A stretch of 46,302 nt of DNA from Methylococcaceae bacterium (GTDB lineage: Bacteria > Pseudomonadota > Gammaproteobacteria > Methylococcales > Methylomonadaceae): assembly GCA_947506155.1 (NCBI GenBank), contig CANNNV010000003.1, positions 1 to 46,302 on the forward strand, given 5' to 3'. Each line of letters opens with the position of its first letter. The first letter of the stretch is position 1. Positions 33,983 to 42,477 of the stretch are shown one piece after another. The notes beneath the pieces were generated by a model. That model was not told the origin of the DNA. It searched no databases and was given only the letters and a program-made list of their open reading frames with translations. The position numbers and the translations under genes are program-made.

Positions 33983-34396
33983 TTACTGTCCCATTTTTAA
34001 AGTCTGAAGCATCATCTGCTTTGCGGTATTCAAAACGTCCACATTATTTTGATACGAGCGGGATGCCGACATCATATTGGCCATTTCTTCAACGGTATTG
34101 ACATTGGATTTATAGATGTAACCGTTTTTATCAGCCAGAGGATGATTGGGGGCATACTCCATGACAGGAACTTCCTGGCTCTCAACCACACCCAATACTT
34201 TTACTTTACTGGTAGCATTTTGCTTATTGATCACATTATTTAATTCAGCGGCAAACACGGGTTGCCTGGATTTGTAAACATCAGCCTCGCTGTTACCGAC
34301 ACTGTTGGCATTGGATATATTACTTGCGACTAGATTGAGCCTTAACGATTGAGCGTTCATGCCGCTACCGGCAATATCAAAGATACTTAAGCTCAT
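33983..34396 (-). CDS. flgC: Flagellar proximal rod protein FlgC
   Basis: A 137-residue rod protein of standard length. The N-terminal motif IFDIAGSGMNAQSLRLNLVASNISNANS and the C-terminal helix VEEMANMMSASRSYQNNVDVLNTAKQMMLQTL identify FlgC. It has no signal peptide and is exported by the flagellar apparatus to form the proximal rod with FlgB and FlgF. It follows flgB by 2 bases, so the two are co-translated. Confidence 0.95.
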   Translation of the reverse strand: MSLSIFDIAGSGMNAQSLRLNLVASNISNANSVGNSEADVYKSRQPVFAAELNNVINKQNATSKVKVLGVVESQEVPVMEYAPNHPLADKNGYIYKSNVNTVEEMANMMSASRSYQNNVDVLNTAKQMMLQTLKMGQ

Positions 34397-34398
34397 GA

Positions 34399-34791
34399 TT
34401 ATTGTCCTCTGATTGCAGTCATTAAACCTGCAAAATCGTCACCAATAAAATGCAAACTGGCCTGATACTGCACTGCATTTTCAGCATATCTGGCCTGTTC
34501 AATATGGGGTTCCACGGTGTTACCATCTAATGACACTTGATTGGGATTTCGGTACATGACATTAGCACCAAACAGCTGTTGCTGTGGTGTAATATGTCCA
34601 GGCTGGGTGCGTTCCATACTAACAGCTGAAACCACGCTTTGTTTTAGAACTGATTTAAAATCCAGATCACGCGCCTTAAAATTCGGCGTATCTGCATTGG
34701 CCAAATTAGCAGCCAGTATCTCACCACGTTTTTCTCTAAAAGTCAGAAGCTTAGGTTCAATGCCTAGCGCTGTGTCGAAATTAATTGCCAT
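34399..34791 (-). CDS. flgB: Flagellar proximal rod protein FlgB
   Basis: A 130-residue rod protein, first of the flgBCDEFGHIJKL operon. It starts with INFDTALGIEPKLLTFREKRGEILAANLANADTPNFKARDLDF and ends with the QYQASLHFIGDDFAGLMTAIRGQ helix. I chose the internal ATG with AGGAGA upstream. The same frame stays open for 20 more codons, but that extension would run across the sigma-54-type promoter at 34827-34842 and is not FlgB-like. FlgB joins the rod to the MS ring. Confidence 0.95.
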   Translation of the reverse strand: MAINFDTALGIEPKLLTFREKRGEILAANLANADTPNFKARDLDFKSVLKQSVVSAVSMERTQPGHITPQQQLFGANVMYRNPNQVSLDGNTVEPHIEQARYAENAVQYQASLHFIGDDFAGLMTAIRGQ

Positions 34792-34826
34792 GATCTGTCT
34801 CCTGATTACTGGTACAAAACCAAAAA

Positions 34827-34842
34827 AGCACAGTGCATGCCA
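34827..34842 (-). promoter_or_regulatory. Sigma-54-type promoter for flgB operon
   Basis: Read on the minus strand the sequence is TGGCATGCACTGTGCT: GG and GC are separated by exactly 10 bases, as required for RpoN promoters (consensus TGGCAC-N5-TTGC). The GC element lies 36 bases before the flgB ATG, so transcription would begin about 25 bases before the start codon. RpoN control of rod-hook operons is known from Pseudomonas and Vibrio. The activator gene (FleQ or FlrC type) is not in this window. Confidence 0.65.
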
Positions 34843-35020
34843 CAAAATCACAACACATAAAAATCAATCAGATATAATTTTTAAAATTATTTCCTCTGCT
34901 CTGTAGTTAGATGGGCTTAGAATATTAAAAGGAACCGCTAATAACCATCTCGGTAATGTCAATAAATTGACCAGCATGATTCATGCTTGGTAAGTTAACT
35001 GAGCAATAGAGAAACGCTTG

Positions 35021-35722
35021 ATGATAAAAAATGCCCCACTCATGTTGATTTTGGCTTTTGTTGTTTTTGCTACAGCGCATGCAAAACAAGGTTCGCAATC
35101 ACATGAATCTATTGATGAAACCGTTAAAGCCTATATTGCAAAAAATATAAATTTACCGGGGGAATATGAAGTGACTGTAACGCCATTGGATAATCGCTTA
35201 GATTTGCCCCAATGTGACGAGCCACTAGAAGCCTTTACAACAACTGATGCAATCAAGGCCGGAAGAGTGACTATCGGCGTACGCTGTAATGATATGGAAA
35301 AGAAATGGTCAATTTTTACATCAGCGATACTTAAGACCTATCAAATAGTTGTAGTTTTATCTCAACCAATACAACGGGGAGAAATTATTACCCGAGCACA
35401 TCTTGCCATGGAAAAACGAGAAACATCTAATCTTAGAGATGATTTTGTCACTCAACTAGAACACGTTGAAAACAAACAGACCACGCGTCAACTCAAGGTC
35501 GGAACTATCCTTAGCCTAAAAAACGTGGTCGAACCTATATTGATCAAAAGAGGAGATAAAGTTGTTATTAGCACAAAAAAATCTGATTTTTCTATTAAAA
35601 TGAGCGGGATAGCCATAACCGACGGCATCAAAAATCAGCTAATCAAGGTTAAAAATCAGAATTCTGGACGAATTATTAATGCAACTGTCGTCGAACCTGG
35701 CCTGGTTTCTGTTGATTATTAA
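35021..35722 (+). CDS. flgA: Flagellar P-ring assembly chaperone FlgA
   Basis: A 233-residue periplasmic chaperone for FlgI. An N-terminal Sec signal peptide ends near AHA, followed by the SAF-domain region (about residues 110-225) with the wording RGEIITRAHLAMEKRE and the final NxxSGRIINATVVEPGLVSVDY. The C-terminal SAF part is the conserved core. The ATG is preceded in frame by TTG, which could add one residue. It is divergent from the flgB operon and starts the flgA-flgM-flgN set on the plus strand. Confidence 0.94.
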   Translation: MIKNAPLMLILAFVVFATAHAKQGSQSHESIDETVKAYIAKNINLPGEYEVTVTPLDNRLDLPQCDEPLEAFTTTDAIKAGRVTIGVRCNDMEKKWSIFTSAILKTYQIVVVLSQPIQRGEIITRAHLAMEKRETSNLRDDFVTQLEHVENKQTTRQLKVGTILSLKNVVEPILIKRGDKVVISTKKSDFSIKMSGIAITDGIKNQLIKVKNQNSGRIINATVVEPGLVSVDY

Positions 35723-35727
35723 ACTGT

Positions 35728-35754
35728 TAAAGTTTTCTATCCCATTGCCGACAA
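35728..35754 (+). promoter_or_regulatory. Sigma-28 (FliA) promoter for flgMN
   Basis: TAAAGTTT (35728-35735) and GCCGACAA (35747-35754) are separated by exactly 11 bases. The enterobacterial FliA consensus is TAAAGTTT-N11-GCCGATAA, so only one base differs. It lies between the flgA stop codon and flgM, about 35 bases upstream of the flgM ATG. This gives flgM the classic feedback arrangement, in which the anti-sigma factor is made from a promoter of the sigma factor it inhibits. Confidence 0.88.
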
Positions 35755-35788
35755 ATGTTGCACGTAAAGAGAGCTTAAGGAGTTTGAC

Positions 35789-36097
35789 ATGACTATAGGA
35801 ATAACCGGCAGAACAACCAGTTTAACAACACCAAAAACGCCCACAAAAACTGAGATTGAGGGTGAAAAAAAAACCGCTATTGCAAACACAGAAAAAAATG
35901 ACAGTATTGCACTGACAACTGCAACCCAGGAAATGAAAAAAACCATGGGGTCATCTTCTGCGTCCCCTGTAGATATTGACCGGGTTAATGCTGTTAAAAA
36001 AGCTATTACCGACGGCAATCACACCATCAATGCTGAAAATGTTGCAAAAAAAATGATTCAATTTGAGAAGTTAATACAACAAAAAAATAGTATCTAA
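35789..36097 (+). CDS. flgM: Anti-sigma-28 factor FlgM
   Basis: A 102-residue protein, unstructured and polar in its first half (Thr/Lys-rich). The C-terminal FliA-binding helices include VDIDRVNAVKKAITDGNHTINAENVAKKMIQFE, the typical V-x-x-I-x-x-G-x-Y/H-x-I/V pattern of FlgM. It inhibits FliA until the hook is finished and is then exported. A TAAGGAG ribosome-binding site precedes the ATG. It is translated just ahead of flgN, and a sigma-28 promoter lies directly upstream. Confidence 0.92.
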   Translation: MTIGITGRTTSLTTPKTPTKTEIEGEKKTAIANTEKNDSIALTTATQEMKKTMGSSSASPVDIDRVNAVKKAITDGNHTINAENVAKKMIQFEKLIQQKNSI

Positions 36098-36099
36098 CC

Positions 36100-36594
36100 G
36101 TGATAAAAAAAACTTACCCGATTATAGAACAGCTCATCATTAACGCCCTGAAAATGACAGAGCAACTACATCAGGAACTCAATAGGGAAGCCGATGCGTT
36201 AAAAAAAAACCCACAGGCGGCACTGATTAGTGACCTCGCCGCTAATAAAAAACAGCTGATTGAACAGCTAGAACAGTTCAACACACAACTTACACAAATA
36301 CTGGCAACTGAAAAATTGCCTAACAATCAGGACAGCATTAGAGAATATTTTAAACGCGCTGAAACAGCCTGCCTGTCAACCGCAGAATCGACAAGCAACT
36401 GGGCACAACTGATGCGTGTCTGTTTTGAATGCAGAGCACTCAATGAACAAAATGGTGCAAGTATTGATCTTTTGTCCCGTTACACCAAACGCTCACTGGA
36501 TATTTTAAAAGGAAAGCCAGACTTTCCTAATACCTATGGTGCTGATGGATCCACTCAAAGTGAGCGCTATAGCCACCGGCTGATTTCAGTATAA
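36100..36594 (+). CDS. flgN: Flagellar export chaperone FlgN
   Basis: A 164-residue helical protein beginning at GTG two bases after the flgM stop. The sequence is rich in Gln, Leu and Glu with heptad-like helices (residues 10-75), as expected for the FlgN chaperone that escorts FlgK and FlgL to the export gate. FlgN proteins vary strongly in sequence, so the call rests on length, helix content, the RCxxCRxLNxxNGxxI-like segment (FECRALNEQNGASIDLL) and its place after flgM. Confidence 0.88.
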   Translation: MIKKTYPIIEQLIINALKMTEQLHQELNREADALKKNPQAALISDLAANKKQLIEQLEQFNTQLTQILATEKLPNNQDSIREYFKRAETACLSTAESTSNWAQLMRVCFECRALNEQNGASIDLLSRYTKRSLDILKGKPDFPNTYGADGSTQSERYSHRLISV

Positions 36595-36650
36595 TCACTT
36601 GCACAGATATGTTAAATTTCACGCAATTATTATCAAACGAAGTTAAATAT

Positions 36651-38039
36651 TTATCCCCATTGTGATTTGTGAACATTAAAACTACGTCCCTTGATTTTGC
36701 CATGTTTCAAGCAAGCGTAGGCTTTGTCGACACTGTCACGCTTGATTGCCACATAAGCATGGCCATCAAAAATATCAATCTTACCTACTTCACTGCCTGA
36801 AATCCCGGCATCACCGGTTAAGGCGCCGAGTATGTCCCCGGGACGTACTTTGTTTTTGCGCCCGCCGTCTATCCATAAGGTCACCATCGGCGGCTCAAAG
36901 CGTTGCTCATAACCCAGATGAAATGGCGCGACTTCGTCCCACTTGGCTGGAATAGACTGATAGTCTTCGATCGCGCTGACCCGGTTTACTTCCTGTTCGG
37001 TACACAAACTGAGCGCCAAACCTTTTTTACCGGCTCGACCCGTGCGGCCGATTCGATGTACGTAAATTTCAGGGTCCCAGGGCAATTCATAATTAATCAC
37101 CGCCTGCATGTCCTTAATATCCAGGCCCCGCGCAGCGACATCGGTTGCCACTAGCACCGAGCAACTTTTATTGGAAAAACGCACCAGCACCTGATCGCGA
37201 TGTTTTTGTTCCAAATCGCCATGCAGGGCCTGAACCGAAAAGCCGCTGTTTTCAAGAGAGCTGGCCACATCCTGACATTCCCGCTTGGTGTTGCAAAAAA
37301 CCACAGTCGATTCGGGCCGGTGATAGGCTAAAAGATAACCCAAGGCATGAATTCTTTTGGATTTTTCGACCTGGTAAAAACGCTGCTCAATATCACTGTC
37401 GTGCTGATTACTTTCAATACTGACCGAAACTGGTTTAAACTGAAATTTCTGACTTATTTCCCGAATTGGATCTGTATAAGTCGCGGAAAACAACAAGGTT
37501 TGCCGATGGGTAGGCGCGTAGGAAACCACATCGGAAATCGCCTCTTCAAAGCCCATGTCCAGCATCCGATCGGCTTCGTCCAGCACCAGCACTTTTAAAT
37601 TACTCAGGCGCAGACTGCGTTTGCGCAAATGCTCCTGTAACCGTCCCGGCGTACCGACCACCACATGTACACCATGTTCCAATGAACCCAGCTGCGGCCC
37701 GAAAGGTACACCACCACACAAAGTCAGCACCTTGATATTTTGCGTGAATCGCGCCAGCCGCCGAATCTCCTTGCAGACCTGATCGGCAAGTTCGCGGGTC
37801 GGACAAATCACCATCGCCTGCACCCTGAAACTGTTCAAATCCAGCTTGGATAACAGACCGATACCAAACGCGGCAGTTTTGCCGCTACCCGTTTTAGCCT
37901 GCGCGATCACATCCCTGCCCTCAAGGATATGCGGCAAACTTTCCGCTTGAATAGGCGTTAAACAGGTGTAACCCAGGGATTCAATGTTTTCAAGCAGGGC
38001 GGGTTTTAAAGCTAGGGAGGAAAATTCAGCAGTGTTCAC
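36651..38039 (-). CDS. dbpA: DEAD-box ATP-dependent RNA helicase DbpA
   Basis: A 462-residue RNA helicase acting in large ribosomal subunit assembly. The Q motif is followed by motif I AKTGSGKT (48-55), DEAD (154-157), SAT (185-187) and, in the second RecA domain, the HRIGRTGRAG motif VI. The C-terminal RNA-binding domain (about residues 385-462, from GALTGDAGISG to GRSFNVHKSQWG) is the DbpA-type RRM that binds helix 92 of 23S rRNA. This domain separates it from other DEAD-box proteins. Translation starts at GTG. A hairpin lies 22 bases before the start. It converges with flgN. Confidence 0.95.
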   Translation of the reverse strand: MNTAEFSSLALKPALLENIESLGYTCLTPIQAESLPHILEGRDVIAQAKTGSGKTAAFGIGLLSKLDLNSFRVQAMVICPTRELADQVCKEIRRLARFTQNIKVLTLCGGVPFGPQLGSLEHGVHVVVGTPGRLQEHLRKRSLRLSNLKVLVLDEADRMLDMGFEEAISDVVSYAPTHRQTLLFSATYTDPIREISQKFQFKPVSVSIESNQHDSDIEQRFYQVEKSKRIHALGYLLAYHRPESTVVFCNTKRECQDVASSLENSGFSVQALHGDLEQKHRDQVLVRFSNKSCSVLVATDVAARGLDIKDMQAVINYELPWDPEIYVHRIGRTGRAGKKGLALSLCTEQEVNRVSAIEDYQSIPAKWDEVAPFHLGYEQRFEPPMVTLWIDGGRKNKVRPGDILGALTGDAGISGSEVGKIDIFDGHAYVAIKRDSVDKAYACLKHGKIKGRSFNVHKSQWG

Positions 38040-38061
38040 AAGGACTCTTTATGTAGAGGAA

Positions 38062-38084
38062 AATGACGGCGAACTGCCGTCATT
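38062..38084 (-). promoter_or_regulatory. Leader hairpin upstream of dbpA, like 23S rRNA helix 92
   Basis: A perfect 9-base stem AATGACGGC / GCCGTCATT closes a 5-base loop which, on the minus strand (the sense of dbpA), reads AGTTC. The RNA apex is GGC-AGUUC-GCC. Helix 92 of E. coli 23S rRNA, the DbpA binding site, has GGC-UGUUC-GCC. The hairpin ends 22 bases before the GTG of dbpA. It also lies downstream of the lpxA-type gene and could simply be its terminator, but the run of T after the stem is only four bases. Confidence 0.5.
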
Positions 38085-38165
38085 CAATTGTTCATGATAC
38101 CAGAAATCGGAGTATCTCGGAGATTGATTACAGGCCAAACTTAGCGACGAATAACACGCTAACAC

Positions 38166-38927
38166 TTAAATAAAGCCATGAACTCCGCGTCTGGATTTAA
38201 CCGCCAGCCAGTCTTTTAGTTGTTTTAACTCTGCGGTTTCTTCCAGACTCTCCAAACTTTGCTTGTTTTTTAACAAGCGAAAAGCCGCTGCCAACACTTT
38301 ATAGCGCTCGCCGATAATACCGGCACGCCTTAAGCCTACGGTGTTCAATTTGTAATGCTTAGCGGGACGCCCAGCTATCAGCATAAACGGCATCACATCC
38401 ATATTAAGACCGGTAGTGCCCTGCACTATTGCAAACGATCCTATCCGGCAAAACTGATGCACGACCACCGCCCCACCCATAAACACATGATTACCGACTT
38501 CGACATGCCCGCCAATCGCGACATTGTTTGCAAAAAGGGTATTATTGCCAACGTTACAGTCATGCGCGACATGGCTGTTATTCATAAAAAAGCAACCCGA
38601 ACCGATCTGTGTCACGCCCTGTGCTTTAGAGGATCGGTGTGCGGTAAAGCCCTCTCTAAATACATTATTGTCGCCACAGATCAGCCAGGAAACTGTTTCC
38701 GGCTCAAAACTCGTATCCTGCGGCAGGCCACCCAATACCGAATGTGGATGTAAAATATTGCCGTTACCCATTTTTACCTGACTGTGTACCACGGCGTGAG
38801 CACCCACCTGGCAGTCGGCCCCCAATTCTGCACCGGTTTCAATCACAGCAAAAGGTCCAACAGTTACATTGTTTCCCAGGATTACATCCGCTGCAATATA
38901 AGCGGTTGGGTGAATATTTTGAGCCAT
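38166..38927 (-). CDS. lpxA: LpxA-type acyl-ACP-UDP-N-acetylglucosamine O-acyltransferase
   Basis: A 253-residue left-handed beta-helix protein made of hexapeptide repeats (residues 5-190) with a helical C-terminus. The catalytic region SHVAHDCNVGNNTLFANN aligns with the E. coli LpxA segment that carries catalytic His125, and GGAVVVHQFCRIGSFA matches the following coil. The acyl-chain region differs (PFMLIAGRPAKHYKLN instead of the E. coli PPYVIAQGNHATPFGVN). The gene stands alone rather than between fabZ and lpxB. It may therefore be a second LpxA paralogue, with another acyl-length or sugar preference, rather than the main lipid A enzyme. Confidence 0.85.
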   Translation of the reverse strand: MAQNIHPTAYIAADVILGNNVTVGPFAVIETGAELGADCQVGAHAVVHSQVKMGNGNILHPHSVLGGLPQDTSFEPETVSWLICGDNNVFREGFTAHRSSKAQGVTQIGSGCFFMNNSHVAHDCNVGNNTLFANNVAIGGHVEVGNHVFMGGAVVVHQFCRIGSFAIVQGTTGLNMDVMPFMLIAGRPAKHYKLNTVGLRRAGIIGERYKVLAAAFRLLKNKQSLESLEETAELKQLKDWLAVKSRRGVHGFI

Positions 38928-39014
38928 TAGTTATCCTCTTAGATGATATTTTATCTGAATTTTTTCGACCTGTACGTCTGTCAATTGCTAAACAAATCTT
39001 TAATTATTAGCCAT

Positions 39015-39045
39015 AAAAAAAGGCAGCTAAAAGCTGCCTTTTTTA
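39015..39045. terminator. Bidirectional terminator after rplS
   Basis: AAAAAAAGGCAGCT and AGCTGCCTTTTTT form a GC-rich stem with a three-base loop, A-tract on one side and T-tract on the other. It lies 20 bases beyond the rplS stop codon and ends the rpsP-rimM-trmD-rplS transcript on the minus strand. Confidence 0.92.
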
Positions 39046-39065
39046 TTTGATAAAAACCAGTAGTA

Positions 39066-39407
39066 TTAAAGTTTTTCTTTAATACGAGCCGCTTTACCAG
39101 TCAAGTCACGCAAGTAATACAATTTGGCGCGACGAACATCACCGCGACGCTTGACAGTGATCTCGTTAATGATATGGCTATGAGTTTGAAATACACGCTC
39201 AACACCAGTACCATGAGAAATTTTTCTTACTGTAAAAGCCGAGTTTAAACCACGATTACGTTTTGCAATCACGATGCCTTCAAAAGCCTGAATTCTTTCA
39301 CGCTCGCCTTCTTTAACTTTAACCTGTACAACAACTGTGTCACCTGGACTAAAGTCAGGAATTTGTTTCAGTTGTTCTGCTTCCAATTCATCAATAATAT
39401 TGCTCAT
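39066..39407 (-). CDS. rplS: 50S ribosomal protein L19
   Basis: A 113-residue protein of the large subunit at the 30S-50S interface. It begins [25 protein letters not shown] and contains the family pattern [52 protein letters not shown] (here [17 protein letters not shown]) and ends in [10 protein letters not shown]. I chose the ATG with AAGGTG upstream; a GTG two codons earlier is also in frame. It is the last gene of the rpsP operon and is followed by a strong terminator. Confidence 0.97.
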
Positions 39408-39421
39408 TACCACACCTTAAT

Positions 39422-40159
39422 TTAAACCAACTCCACAATAAATTCTCTAAGCAAATTTTCCTGCTCTGCACTCAAATTCTTTTTTTTCAATAAATCCGGT
39501 CGCTTTTGCCACGTTCGACCCAACGCCTGCTTCATGCGCCAACGCTCTATCTCGGCATGGTTACCACCCAATAAAACCTGGGGTACCGAACATGCTGCAA
39601 TTTGCTCTGGCCGGGTAAAGTGAGGACAATCCAGCAAACCATCACTGTGAGAGTCCTGCTGGGCAGAATCCTCATCGCCAAGCACTCCGGGCAGTAACCG
39701 CGTCACGGCATCGATAACGACCAACGCTGCAAGTTCACCGCCGCTGATCACGTAGTCACCGATAGACCATTCTTCATCGCAATCTTGCTCAACAAAGCGT
39801 TCATCAATACCTTCGTAACGACCTGCAACTAAAATCAACTGTTCTAGCTCACAAGTCTCAGAAAGCAAAGCCTGCGTAATCGGCTTGCCTTGCGGACTCA
39901 TATAAACCACTTTAGCGGCTTTTACCCCAGCTTGTTTTGCGGCCTGAACCGCATCATGCAAAGGCTGATACTTCATGACCATACCAGGTCCGCCGCCGTA
40001 AGGACGATCATCAACAGTCCGGTGCCTGTCTAAAGTATAATCCCGAGGATTCCAGGCTGACAAACTGACAATATTGCGTTCAATTGCCCTGCCTGTGACT
40101 CCGCAACCTGCAGCGGCTATCACCATGTCAGGAAATAAAGTTACAACATCAAAACGCAT
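39422..40159 (-). CDS. trmD: tRNA (guanine-N1)-methyltransferase TrmD
   Basis: A 245-residue SPOUT-class enzyme that makes m1G37 in tRNAs reading CNN-type codons (Leu, Pro, Arg), preventing frameshifting. The trefoil-knot SAM site shows [12 protein letters not shown] (about residue 52), [11 protein letters not shown] (about 112) and [13 protein letters not shown] (about 133). The C-terminal helical domain includes the HYTRP-type motif as PHFTRPEQ. Length is normal. It lies between rimM and rplS in the widely conserved order. Confidence 0.97.
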
Positions 40160-40167
40160 GCAGCTAA

Positions 40168-40671
40168 TTAAAACTCAGGATCCCAGTCGACAATTATTTT
40201 GCCCGCATCCAGATCAACGCTGATGATTGTTTGTCCCTGTAAAAACGGAATAACCCGTTCTCGCTCTCCCTGGACAATCAACACATCGTTAGCGCCTGTT
40301 TCCAGCAGACTGTCAACCATTCCGAACTGAACGCCATCAATAGTTTCAACCGTCAATCCGATCAAATCAGACCAGTAATATTCGTCTTTAGCCGTTTTGG
40401 GTAATTGTTCGGGACTTATAAAAATATCCCAACCCATCAGACTCTCTGCTTGATTTCTATCATCGATACCGGCTAACTGGGCGACTATTGTCTTACCTTG
40501 TAGCTGTCCGTCAACGATAGTAACCGTCTTTGTTTCGTCATTTTTTTTCAGCAACCAGGGAGAATAGGTTAAAATATTTTCCCTCGGATCAGTGAAGGAA
40601 AATACCTTAACCCATCCCTTGATACCAAAAACGCCGGAAATTTTTCCAACGCTTATATGCTGTTCTGACAA
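40168..40671 (-). CDS. rimM: 16S rRNA processing / ribosome maturation factor RimM
   Basis: A 167-residue assembly factor for the 30S head that binds protein S19. The N-terminal beta-barrel has [26 protein letters not shown] and the PRC-barrel C-terminal half has [13 protein letters not shown]...[19 protein letters not shown]. Translation starts at a TTG codon with only a weak ribosome-binding site, 7 bases after the rpsP stop; no in-frame ATG gives a complete N-terminus. This matches the low RimM level seen relative to ribosomal proteins in the E. coli operon. Confidence 0.95.
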
Positions 40672-40678
40672 CTTAAAC

Positions 40679-40930
40679 TTATGCCGCTGCTTTTCGTGCG
40701 TCTTTAATCAACTTCACAACACGTTCAGAAGGTTGCGCGCCATTGGCTTTCCAGTAATCGACGCGTTCACAATCTAAACGCAATTTTTCTTCATTGCCAC
40801 GCGCCAATGGGTTAAAAAAGCCCAAGCGTTCAATATAACGACCGTCACGACTGCTTCTGCTATCAGTTACAACAACATGATAGAAAGGACGATTTTTCGC
40901 GCCACCTCTAGAAAGACGAATGGTTACCAT
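40679..40930 (-). CDS. rpsP: 30S ribosomal protein S16
   Basis: An 83-residue small-subunit protein needed for 30S assembly. It starts [40 protein letters not shown], the complete S16 signature, and has a normal Lys/Arg-rich end. An AAGGAA ribosome-binding site precedes the ATG. It is the first gene of the rpsP-rimM-trmD-rplS operon. Confidence 0.97.
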
Positions 40931-40970
40931 CTAAGTTCCTTAAAAAATTTTAGTCATTGTTAATCCGCCG

Positions 40971-40998
40971 ATTATACTCGATTTTTTGTGCAAGTAAA
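40971..40998 (-). promoter_or_regulatory. Sigma-70 promoter for rpsP operon
   Basis: On the minus strand a perfect -10 TATAAT (40976-40971) is preceded, after 16 bases, by TTTACT (40998-40993). Transcription would begin about 35 bases before the rpsP ATG. This is the only good match in the gap between ffh and rpsP. Confidence 0.7.
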
Positions 40999-41115
40999 GA
41001 AATGGGCGGCACTACTAGCATTTAATTCGTTGCTAGGCAGATGAAAATTAGCACGGGGATAACTGAAACTCGGCAAAATATCATCTGCATTTTATTTTTG
41101 ACAACAACCAAAAAG

Positions 41116-42477
41116 CTACCTTCGCATACCCATGCCGCGCACATTATTTTTTATGCCACGCATCATATTGGCCATATTGCCGGTTTTGAACCGTTTCATC
41201 ATTTTTTGCATCATCGTAAACTGCTTCAGAATGCGATTAACATCGGATAATTGCTGCCCGCAACCGTCAGCGATGCGCTTTTTCCGGTTGCCTTTAATCA
41301 AATCAGGATAACGCCTTTCCTTCATGGTCATTGAATTGATCACGCCAATCTGGCGCGACAATTCCTTGCCATTAACCTTGTCTTTCATTTCCTGAGGAAT
41401 CTCGTTCATGCCCGGCAATTTATCCAGCATCGAACCGACCCCACCCATATCCTGCATTTGCTGCAATTGCTCACGAAAATCTTCCAGATCAAAAGCCTTG
41501 CCTTTTTGTAATTTTTTGAGCAGTTTTTCAGCTTTTTCCTTGTCAACTTTTTGCTCAATATCTTCAATCAGACCCAGGACATCGCCCATGCCCAAAATAC
41601 GGGAAGCGATACGATCGGGATAAAAAGGTTCCAGCGCATCGGTTTTTTCACCCATACCGATAAACTTGATCGGTTTGCCGGTAATGTGACGTATGGATAA
41701 CGCCGCACCGCCACGCGCATCTCCATCCGCCTTGGTCAGGATAATCCCGGTTAACGGCAGCGCATCATTGAAGGCTTTTGCAGTAATCGCGGCATCCTGC
41801 CCGGTCATGCTGTCAACGACAAACAAGGTTTCAATGGGATTGATCGCTGCATGCAGAGCCTTGATTTCGCCCATCATTTCATCATCTACATGCAGACGAC
41901 CTGCGGTATCGATGATAATGACATCAAGAAATTTTCTCTTTGCCGCGTCTATCGCAGCCATCGCAATATCGACCGGATTTTGCGTTATATCGCTATCAAA
42001 AAATTCCAGCGAAACTTCGTTCGCCAGTATCTGCAATTGCTTGATAGCCGCAGGACGATAAACGTCGGTACTGACTACGCCAACTTTTTTCTTTTGATTT
42101 TCTTTTAGCCAGCGGCCCAATTTAGCTACCGTGGTGGTTTTACCCGCCCCCTGCAAACCGGCCATTAAAATAATAGCTGGTGGAACTGCGTTCAGGTTCA
42201 GCTTTTCATTAGCCTCACCCATCACTGCAACCAACTCAGCCTGAACCAGTTTAATCAACGACTGCCCGGGCGAAAGACTGGACTGGACTTCCTGACCCAA
42301 AGCACCTGATTTGATACGTTCAATAAAGTCCGTAACCACCGGCAAAGCGACATCAGCCTCAAGTAACGCCATGCGCACTTCGCGCAACGTGTCCTTGATA
42401 TTGTCTTCAGTCAAGCGCCCTTGACCCTTAATTTTTTTAAGCGTGCTACTCAATCGATCGGTTAAATTATCAAACAT
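41116..42477 (-). CDS. ffh: Signal recognition particle protein Ffh
   Basis: A 453-residue GTPase, exactly the length of E. coli Ffh, that binds signal sequences and 4.5S RNA and delivers nascent membrane proteins to FtsY. It has an N domain followed by the G domain with GLQGAGKTT, DVYRPAAIKQL, DTAGR and TKADGDARGG. The Met-rich M domain ends in MMQKMMKRFKTGNMANMMRGI. I chose the ATG that gives MFDNLTDRLSS, the conserved start; the frame is open for 11 more codons upstream. It is followed by the rpsP operon on the same strand, as in most gammaproteobacteria. Confidence 0.97.
   Translation of the reverse strand: MFDNLTDRLSSTLKKIKGQGRLTEDNIKDTLREVRMALLEADVALPVVTDFIERIKSGALGQEVQSSLSPGQSLIKLVQAELVAVMGEANEKLNLNAVPPAIILMAGLQGAGKTTTVAKLGRWLKENQKKKVGVVSTDVYRPAAIKQLQILANEVSLEFFDSDITQNPVDIAMAAIDAAKRKFLDVIIIDTAGRLHVDDEMMGEIKALHAAINPIETLFVVDSMTGQDAAITAKAFNDALPLTGIILTKADGDARGGAALSIRHITGKPIKFIGMGEKTDALEPFYPDRIASRILGMGDVLGLIEDIEQKVDKEKAEKLLKKLQKGKAFDLEDFREQLQQMQDMGGVGSMLDKLPGMNEIPQEMKDKVNGKELSRQIGVINSMTMKERRYPDLIKGNRKKRIADGCGQQLSDVNRILKQFTMMQKMMKRFKTGNMANMMRGIKNNVRGMGMRR

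Follow-up and report, generated by a model that had tools for sequence, protein, structure and literature searches.

Several kinds of leader stem-loop are known from bacterial mRNAs. The stem-loops of ompA and papA are located at the 5' terminus and stabilise the transcript by slowing 5'-end-dependent decay, and the leaders of ribosomal-protein mRNAs represent autogenous leader sites. Helix 92 of 23S rRNA, also called the A-loop, is the ligand of the RNA-binding domain of DbpA and YxiN. An autogenous leader site also exists in the 5' UTR of rne, where a stem-loop is bound by RNase E (PMC3997798). Moreover, autoregulation has been reported for CrhR, an RNA helicase of Synechocystis (PMC3485376).

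The locus considered here is situated in a stretch of 46,302 nucleotides from a Methylococcaceae bacterium, hereafter called the window, where a hairpin precedes dbpA, the gene of a DEAD-box RNA helicase that acts in ribosome assembly. Like the stem-loops of ompA and papA, the stem of this leader is expected only a few nucleotides from the 5' end and at a fixed distance to the promoter; unlike them, it has a conserved loop sequence. With the leaders of rne and the ribosomal-protein genes it shares that a structured leader near the ribosome-binding site belongs to the gene of one RNA-acting protein, however, across relatives the hairpin matches the known RNA target of DbpA poorly and is a candidate site only. 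Expression control of an RNA helicase gene is the feature in common with CrhR, whereas the helicase and the organism differ and the abstract on CrhR names no hairpin ligand (PMC3485376). According to our analysis, the hairpin is an RNA structure that belongs to the dbpA leader, is conserved among relatives and shows covariation.

The dbpA leader in the window

The gene was identified as dbpA by the NCBIfam equivalog model NF008744 with 747.5 bits at a cut-off of 524, and the named DbpA proteins nearest to that of the window are labelled Methylobacter. The region comprises the following features, given in the direction of transcription:

38166..38927, minus strand: lpxA, the upstream neighbour on the same strand (TIGR01852, 249.5 bits, cut-off 231.05)
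38094..38105, minus strand: TTCTGGTATCAT, the extended -10 element of the promoter, kept in the leaders of the family
38086..38093, minus strand: 8-nt spacer; transcript start expected at about 38087 from the usual -10 to +1 distance
38062..38084, minus strand: hairpin AATGACGGC-AGUUC-GCCGUCAUU, read from sequence, fold and covariation
38085/38061, minus strand: G-U pair flanking the hairpin (RNAfold)
38071..38075, minus strand: pentaloop AGUUC; family consensus A-N-U-U-C with position 2 free
38045..38050, minus strand: AAAGAG, resembling a Shine-Dalgarno sequence; 82 of 83 leaders contain the GAG
36651..38039, minus strand: dbpA, ATP-dependent RNA helicase DbpA, 462 aa, GTG start (NCBIfam NF008744 and PF03880)

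The leader DNA of the minus strand reads AATGACGGC-AGTTC-GCCGTCATT, with the 5' arm at 38084-38076, the loop at 38075-38071 and the 3' arm at 38070-38062, and 22 nt separate the hairpin from the GTG of dbpA (38039-38037). An earlier note on this DNA, the range of which (38039-38084) comprises hairpin plus spacer, had described a perfect 9-bp hairpin with an AGUUC loop 22 nt before the GTG, which is borne out by the sequence and by RNAfold; the latter adds the one G-U pair to give ten pairs. The free energy of the hairpin amounts to -17.6 kcal/mol compared with -8.24 (sd 2.4) for 200 dinucleotide shuffles (z = -3.9), only one of which was as good. Its position supports the view that the hairpin, at this short distance from the start codon, could influence initiation. 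A small second hairpin is found in the window at 38045-38059, where CUCU pairs with AGAG and would mask the Shine-Dalgarno sequence; since the spacer differs in the compared relatives, this second hairpin does not look conserved.

Distribution among relatives and restriction to dbpA

A covariance model built from 26 leaders (R1) matched 81 of 201 family genomes, belonging to 14 of 29 genera. One match was obtained per genome, a number that rests on a filter by which 18-150 first-look candidates were scored in each. All 81 matches are located at dbpA, as found for 76 loci by checking the downstream region and for five that had already been retrieved as dbpA loci; thus, the hairpin is conserved upstream of dbpA in relatives, which the earlier note had named as a test. 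Three of the matches (G026, G168 and G212) lack an entry in the protein list, their contigs ending within the gene, and dbpA sequence follows the match in each. The leader count omits two of 80 named loci: L217 starts within the gene, and L181 fails the -10 rule and has a leader that forms no stable hairpin (-0.3 kcal/mol).

DbpA was detected at E up to 1e-140 in 145 of the 201 family genomes. In 88 of them the protein (one of these partial) is 71-100% identical to that of the window, in the other 57 it is 53-61% identical. R1 matched 78 of the 88 genomes with DbpA at least 71% identical and none of the 57. In the remaining ten of the first set, every leader folds a hairpin downstream of a -10-like site; AATTC, CATCC, AAGCGC and ATAAA are among the loops. 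As an observation on the protein itself, one family harbours two clearly separate DbpA groups, and the leader element occurs only in the one closer to the window. Under strict filters, with 18-33 candidates scored per genome, R1 matched one of 274 genomes of the class, which is the window's own, and 35 of 151 genomes of the order, all 35 from the window's family; hence, outside this family nothing was found in the class and order samples.

A second covariance model restricted to the hairpin (R2) was applied to eight genomes with 150 candidates scored in each. The best match was dbpA in all eight, at E up to 8e-7 in seven of them and at 0.034 in G117, whereas the next site beyond dbpA reached E = 0.0845 and the others 0.2-10, which is chance level in these eight genomes. 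Within the candidates scored, the site is thus restricted to the dbpA leader, with 81 of 81 R1 matches and the best R2 match in eight of eight genomes. A wider regulon, in which genes besides dbpA would carry this hairpin, was considered and rejected, because the R2 matches other than dbpA in the eight genomes had E values of only 0.08 and above. The search of Rfam with window positions 34001-42000 at E up to 1 gave seven matches, none of which overlaps the hairpin. Among the matches listed for open-licence titles and beginnings of abstracts, none announces a dbpA leader element or autoregulation of DbpA, and one paper on Pseudomonas syringae helicases does not contain the terms 'autoregulat', 'stem-loop' or 'untranslated'. 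We file the hairpin as a gene-private leader stem-loop, with nothing matching it in Rfam or in the open-licence literature listed.

Register with the promoter

The dbpA leaders of the relatives align as one block upstream of the gene. It begins with the extended -10, from which 8 nt lead to the hairpin, and a spacer then separates the hairpin from AAAGAG and the start codon. The extended -10 of the relatives mostly reads TCTGGTATCAT or TCTGTTATCAT, and among 83 aligned leaders the block positions T5, G6, A9, A12 and T13 are invariant while T8 and T10 are nearly so. The extended -10 of the window is absent from the output of a two-hexamer promoter scan, which requires a -35. The spacing between -10 and stem is exactly 8 nt in 80 of the 83 leaders, whereas that between stem and GAG varies from 6 to 17 nt. 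This difference indicates that the position of the hairpin is tied more closely to the promoter, and hence to the probable transcript start, than to the ribosome site. The distance between lpxA and dbpA, which was compared only where the retrieved stretch reached lpxA, differs as well, with 126 nt in the window, about 170 in L031 and about 187 in L032.

Covariation of the stem and constraint on the loop

The alignment of 83 leaders (A2; 79 distinct) was made to follow the structure of the model and has rows in common with its seed. In this alignment 85.0% of the stem cells pair, and 60 double-change cells were counted compared with 19.9 in shuffles, none of 500 being as high, and with 6-15 for slid partners, so that covariation of the stem in relatives, which the earlier note had proposed as a check, could be confirmed. 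An alignment of 50 hairpins made from sequence only gave 29 double-change cells against 11.2 in shuffles (0 of 500 as high) and 7-13 in slid controls; its rows were chosen from 67 distinct hairpins by dropping most of those with loops of other length or kind, and the set of 67 was already without up to ten odd hairpins. Different stems carrying the same kind of loop are seen, for example, in the leaders L004, L084, L093 and L123. The pairs 5 and 6 from the loop are broken in 30 and 19 of the 79 distinct rows, respectively, and RNAalifold returned no pairs on alignment A2 and only three on alignment A3. When the 40 nt that follow the -10 were folded for 93 leaders, the mean z was only -1.88, with 88 values below zero and 56 below -1.5; in four leaders (L001, L069, L119 and L120) the minimum-energy fold is without a hairpin loop at the expected place.

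The change at each loop position was counted in parsimony steps on a tree built from the initial 390 nt of dbpA, on which the third codon positions of the gene take 18.9 steps on average. Loop positions 1, 3 and 5 take 3 steps each and carry A in 75 of 81 leaders (never U), T in 79 and C in 76, respectively; position 4, with T in 69 leaders, takes 7 steps, while position 2 is G in 39, C in 19, A in 17 and T/U in 8 of 83 leaders and takes 29 steps. These states and steps give the consensus A-N-U-U-C with a free second base. The commonest loop is AGUUC (32 of 83), followed by ACUUC (13) and AAUUC (11). NUUC is kept in 61 of the 83 leaders, among which the second base is G in 32, C in 14, A in 12 and T in three, and the loop is closed by C in 80 of 81 and by G in 82 of 83 cases. 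According to mutual information, loop position 2 is best partnered with the first base of the basal stem, the fourth-highest score of all column pairs, and the other loop columns have weak partners only. A pseudoknot joining the loop to a different stretch of leader was rejected, because for position 2 and its best partner only 26% of cells are pairable.

Possible functions of the hairpin

Judged from the sequence comparison, the hairpin very likely helps to control dbpA. The reading that we prefer, and regard as reasonably probable, is that of a dbpA-private, family-specific 5'-terminal stem-loop, which would control mRNA stability and/or translation as the cis-acting RNA element of this gene in Methylobacter and the methanotrophs related to it. 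The transcript would probably start about 7 nt past the extended -10, as suggested by the fixed 8-nt spacing, and the mRNA would then begin almost at the stem; accordingly worded for the group as a whole, the dbpA mRNA of Methylobacter and its relatives probably starts with the hairpin. The paired 5' end would most likely shield the mRNA from 5'-end-dependent decay, given that RNase E and RppH are less effective on base-paired 5' ends (PMC3997798), and a stem-loop 6-17 nt before the GAG would be well placed to set ribosome loading. The conserved bases of the A-N-U-U-C loop suggest an RNA-binding protein that reads them. DbpA itself is a candidate for this partner, given that no gene other than dbpA was found to carry the element, and small free-standing DbpA-type RNA-binding proteins of the same genomes might be a second one. 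The conserved loop sequence goes beyond the need of a plain 5' stabiliser and was counted against the reading as a 5'-terminal stem-loop. A hairpin that occurs only at dbpA and covaries over 14 genera with kept loop bases offers a testable handle in culturable methanotrophs.

A less likely alternative is a generic 5'-terminal stabilising stem-loop of the ompA/papA kind that acts without any sequence-specific partner. The constant 8 nt from the -10 at a variable distance to the ribosome site, the strong fold in the window and the hindrance of RNase E and RppH at base-paired 5' ends (PMC3997798) would agree with such a role, however, loop positions 1, 3, 4 and 5 change far below the rate of third codon positions while the stem compensates, which argues against a mere stabiliser.

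It seems rather unlikely that the hairpin mediates autogenous control in which DbpA or the free-standing DbpA-type proteins would read A-N-U-U-C and the closing C-G instead of G2553, the loop base recognised by the YxiN domain. One site found per genome, and only at dbpA, would be in line with such control, and conserved loop bases around one free base resemble protein recognition. Free-standing PF03880 proteins are indeed present in these genomes, but they also occur in genomes in which the element was not found, for example G032 and G033, and the recognition known for the YxiN domain is different (PMC3695512). A related possibility, which we consider unlikely, is that the dbpA hairpin owes a helix-92-like C-[ANUUC]-G loop to either descent or convergence and provides feedback without G2553 via DbpA or a free-standing protein. 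Small free-standing PF03880 proteins were observed in 36 of the 37 family genomes examined for them; two have 118 and 133 aa and a basic tail. It is possible that these proteins are trans-acting RNA binders. Two of their genes are:

L258:144-500, plus strand: free-standing PF03880 protein (genome G000, contig C192)
L257:500-901, minus strand: free-standing PF03880 protein (genome G019)

The earlier note had proposed that the hairpin mimics helix 92, so that the RNA-binding domain of DbpA would bind the leader loop and excess DbpA would block its own translation. The underlying letter match is right, because the window has the exact GUUC between GGC and GCC at 22 nt from the start codon, and a 23S probe allowing up to three mismatches matched in 19 of 61 genomes with GGC-UGUUC-GCC in all among the matches listed; the window's own genome gave no match with this probe, perhaps because the rRNA is missing from the draft. 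The family data also contain points in favour of mimicry, such as AGUUC as the commonest loop, the nearly constant closing C-G, U-U-C at positions 3-5 in 61 of 83 leaders and the restriction to dbpA. In the YxiN complex, though, it is the second loop base, G2553, that is bound by three main-chain hydrogen bonds, with further contacts to the uridines after it (PMC3695512). Binding of this type should strongly constrain position 2, which is observed to be the least constrained of the five loop positions. An invariant GUUC loop, as the earlier note had envisaged for relatives, is realised in only 32 of 83 leaders, and the G at position 2, present in 39 of 83, changes more often than the mean third codon position. 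The leader further differs from helix 92 in having A instead of U as first loop base and in a stem whose sequence is not kept. Three genomes (G008, G012 and G019) possess ACUUC leaders yet UGUUC in their 23S rRNA, and in Methylobacter tundripaludum the leader loop is ACUUC in strain SV96 and AGUUC in strain OWC-G53F. When the RNA-binding domains of 27 AGUUC and 24 A[CA]UUC records were compared, the majority state differed at four of 78 positions, and none of the 78 was fixed differently between both groups. Finally, a hairpin with NGUUC and at least 4 bp was present in 28 of the 83 element leaders, whereas by the same rule none was found in the dbpA leader of E. coli or in 21 leaders from genes of more distant DbpA proteins, which are 45-67% identical over the compared part. 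Taken together, mimicry is improbable, and the leader hairpin probably does not copy helix 92 of 23S rRNA; the case illustrates that a striking resemblance to a known ligand, seen in a single genome, may not hold up once relatives are compared.

Very improbable is a function at the DNA level, i.e. a repressor site with dyad symmetry that would lie directly behind the promoter. A palindrome at a fixed distance from the -10 would suit an operator, and over all nine pairs G-U and A-C are even with 41 and 42 cases, however, in the four apical pairs G-U exceeds A-C by 25 to 3, as is predicted for RNA and not for a DNA palindrome. Moreover, the arms vary and covary around a conserved centre, which is the reverse of an operator. 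An intrinsic terminator of lpxA, which might be suspected because ATTTTCCTCT follows the GC-rich part of the stem in the window, was rejected, since the conserved promoter lies between lpxA and the hairpin at a fixed distance to the latter, TTTT occurs within 8 nt past the stem in only four of 83 leaders, and the terminator scan of the window does not list it.

Other observations in the window

The gene lpxA (38166-38927) stands alone between rplS and dbpA, with no further lpx gene among the identified neighbours. Between rplS and lpxA, an inverted repeat AAAAAAAGGCAGCTAAAAGCTGCCTTTTTT was noticed by eye at 39015-39045, which looks like a two-way terminator and coincides with sub-threshold matches to Rfam sRNA families.
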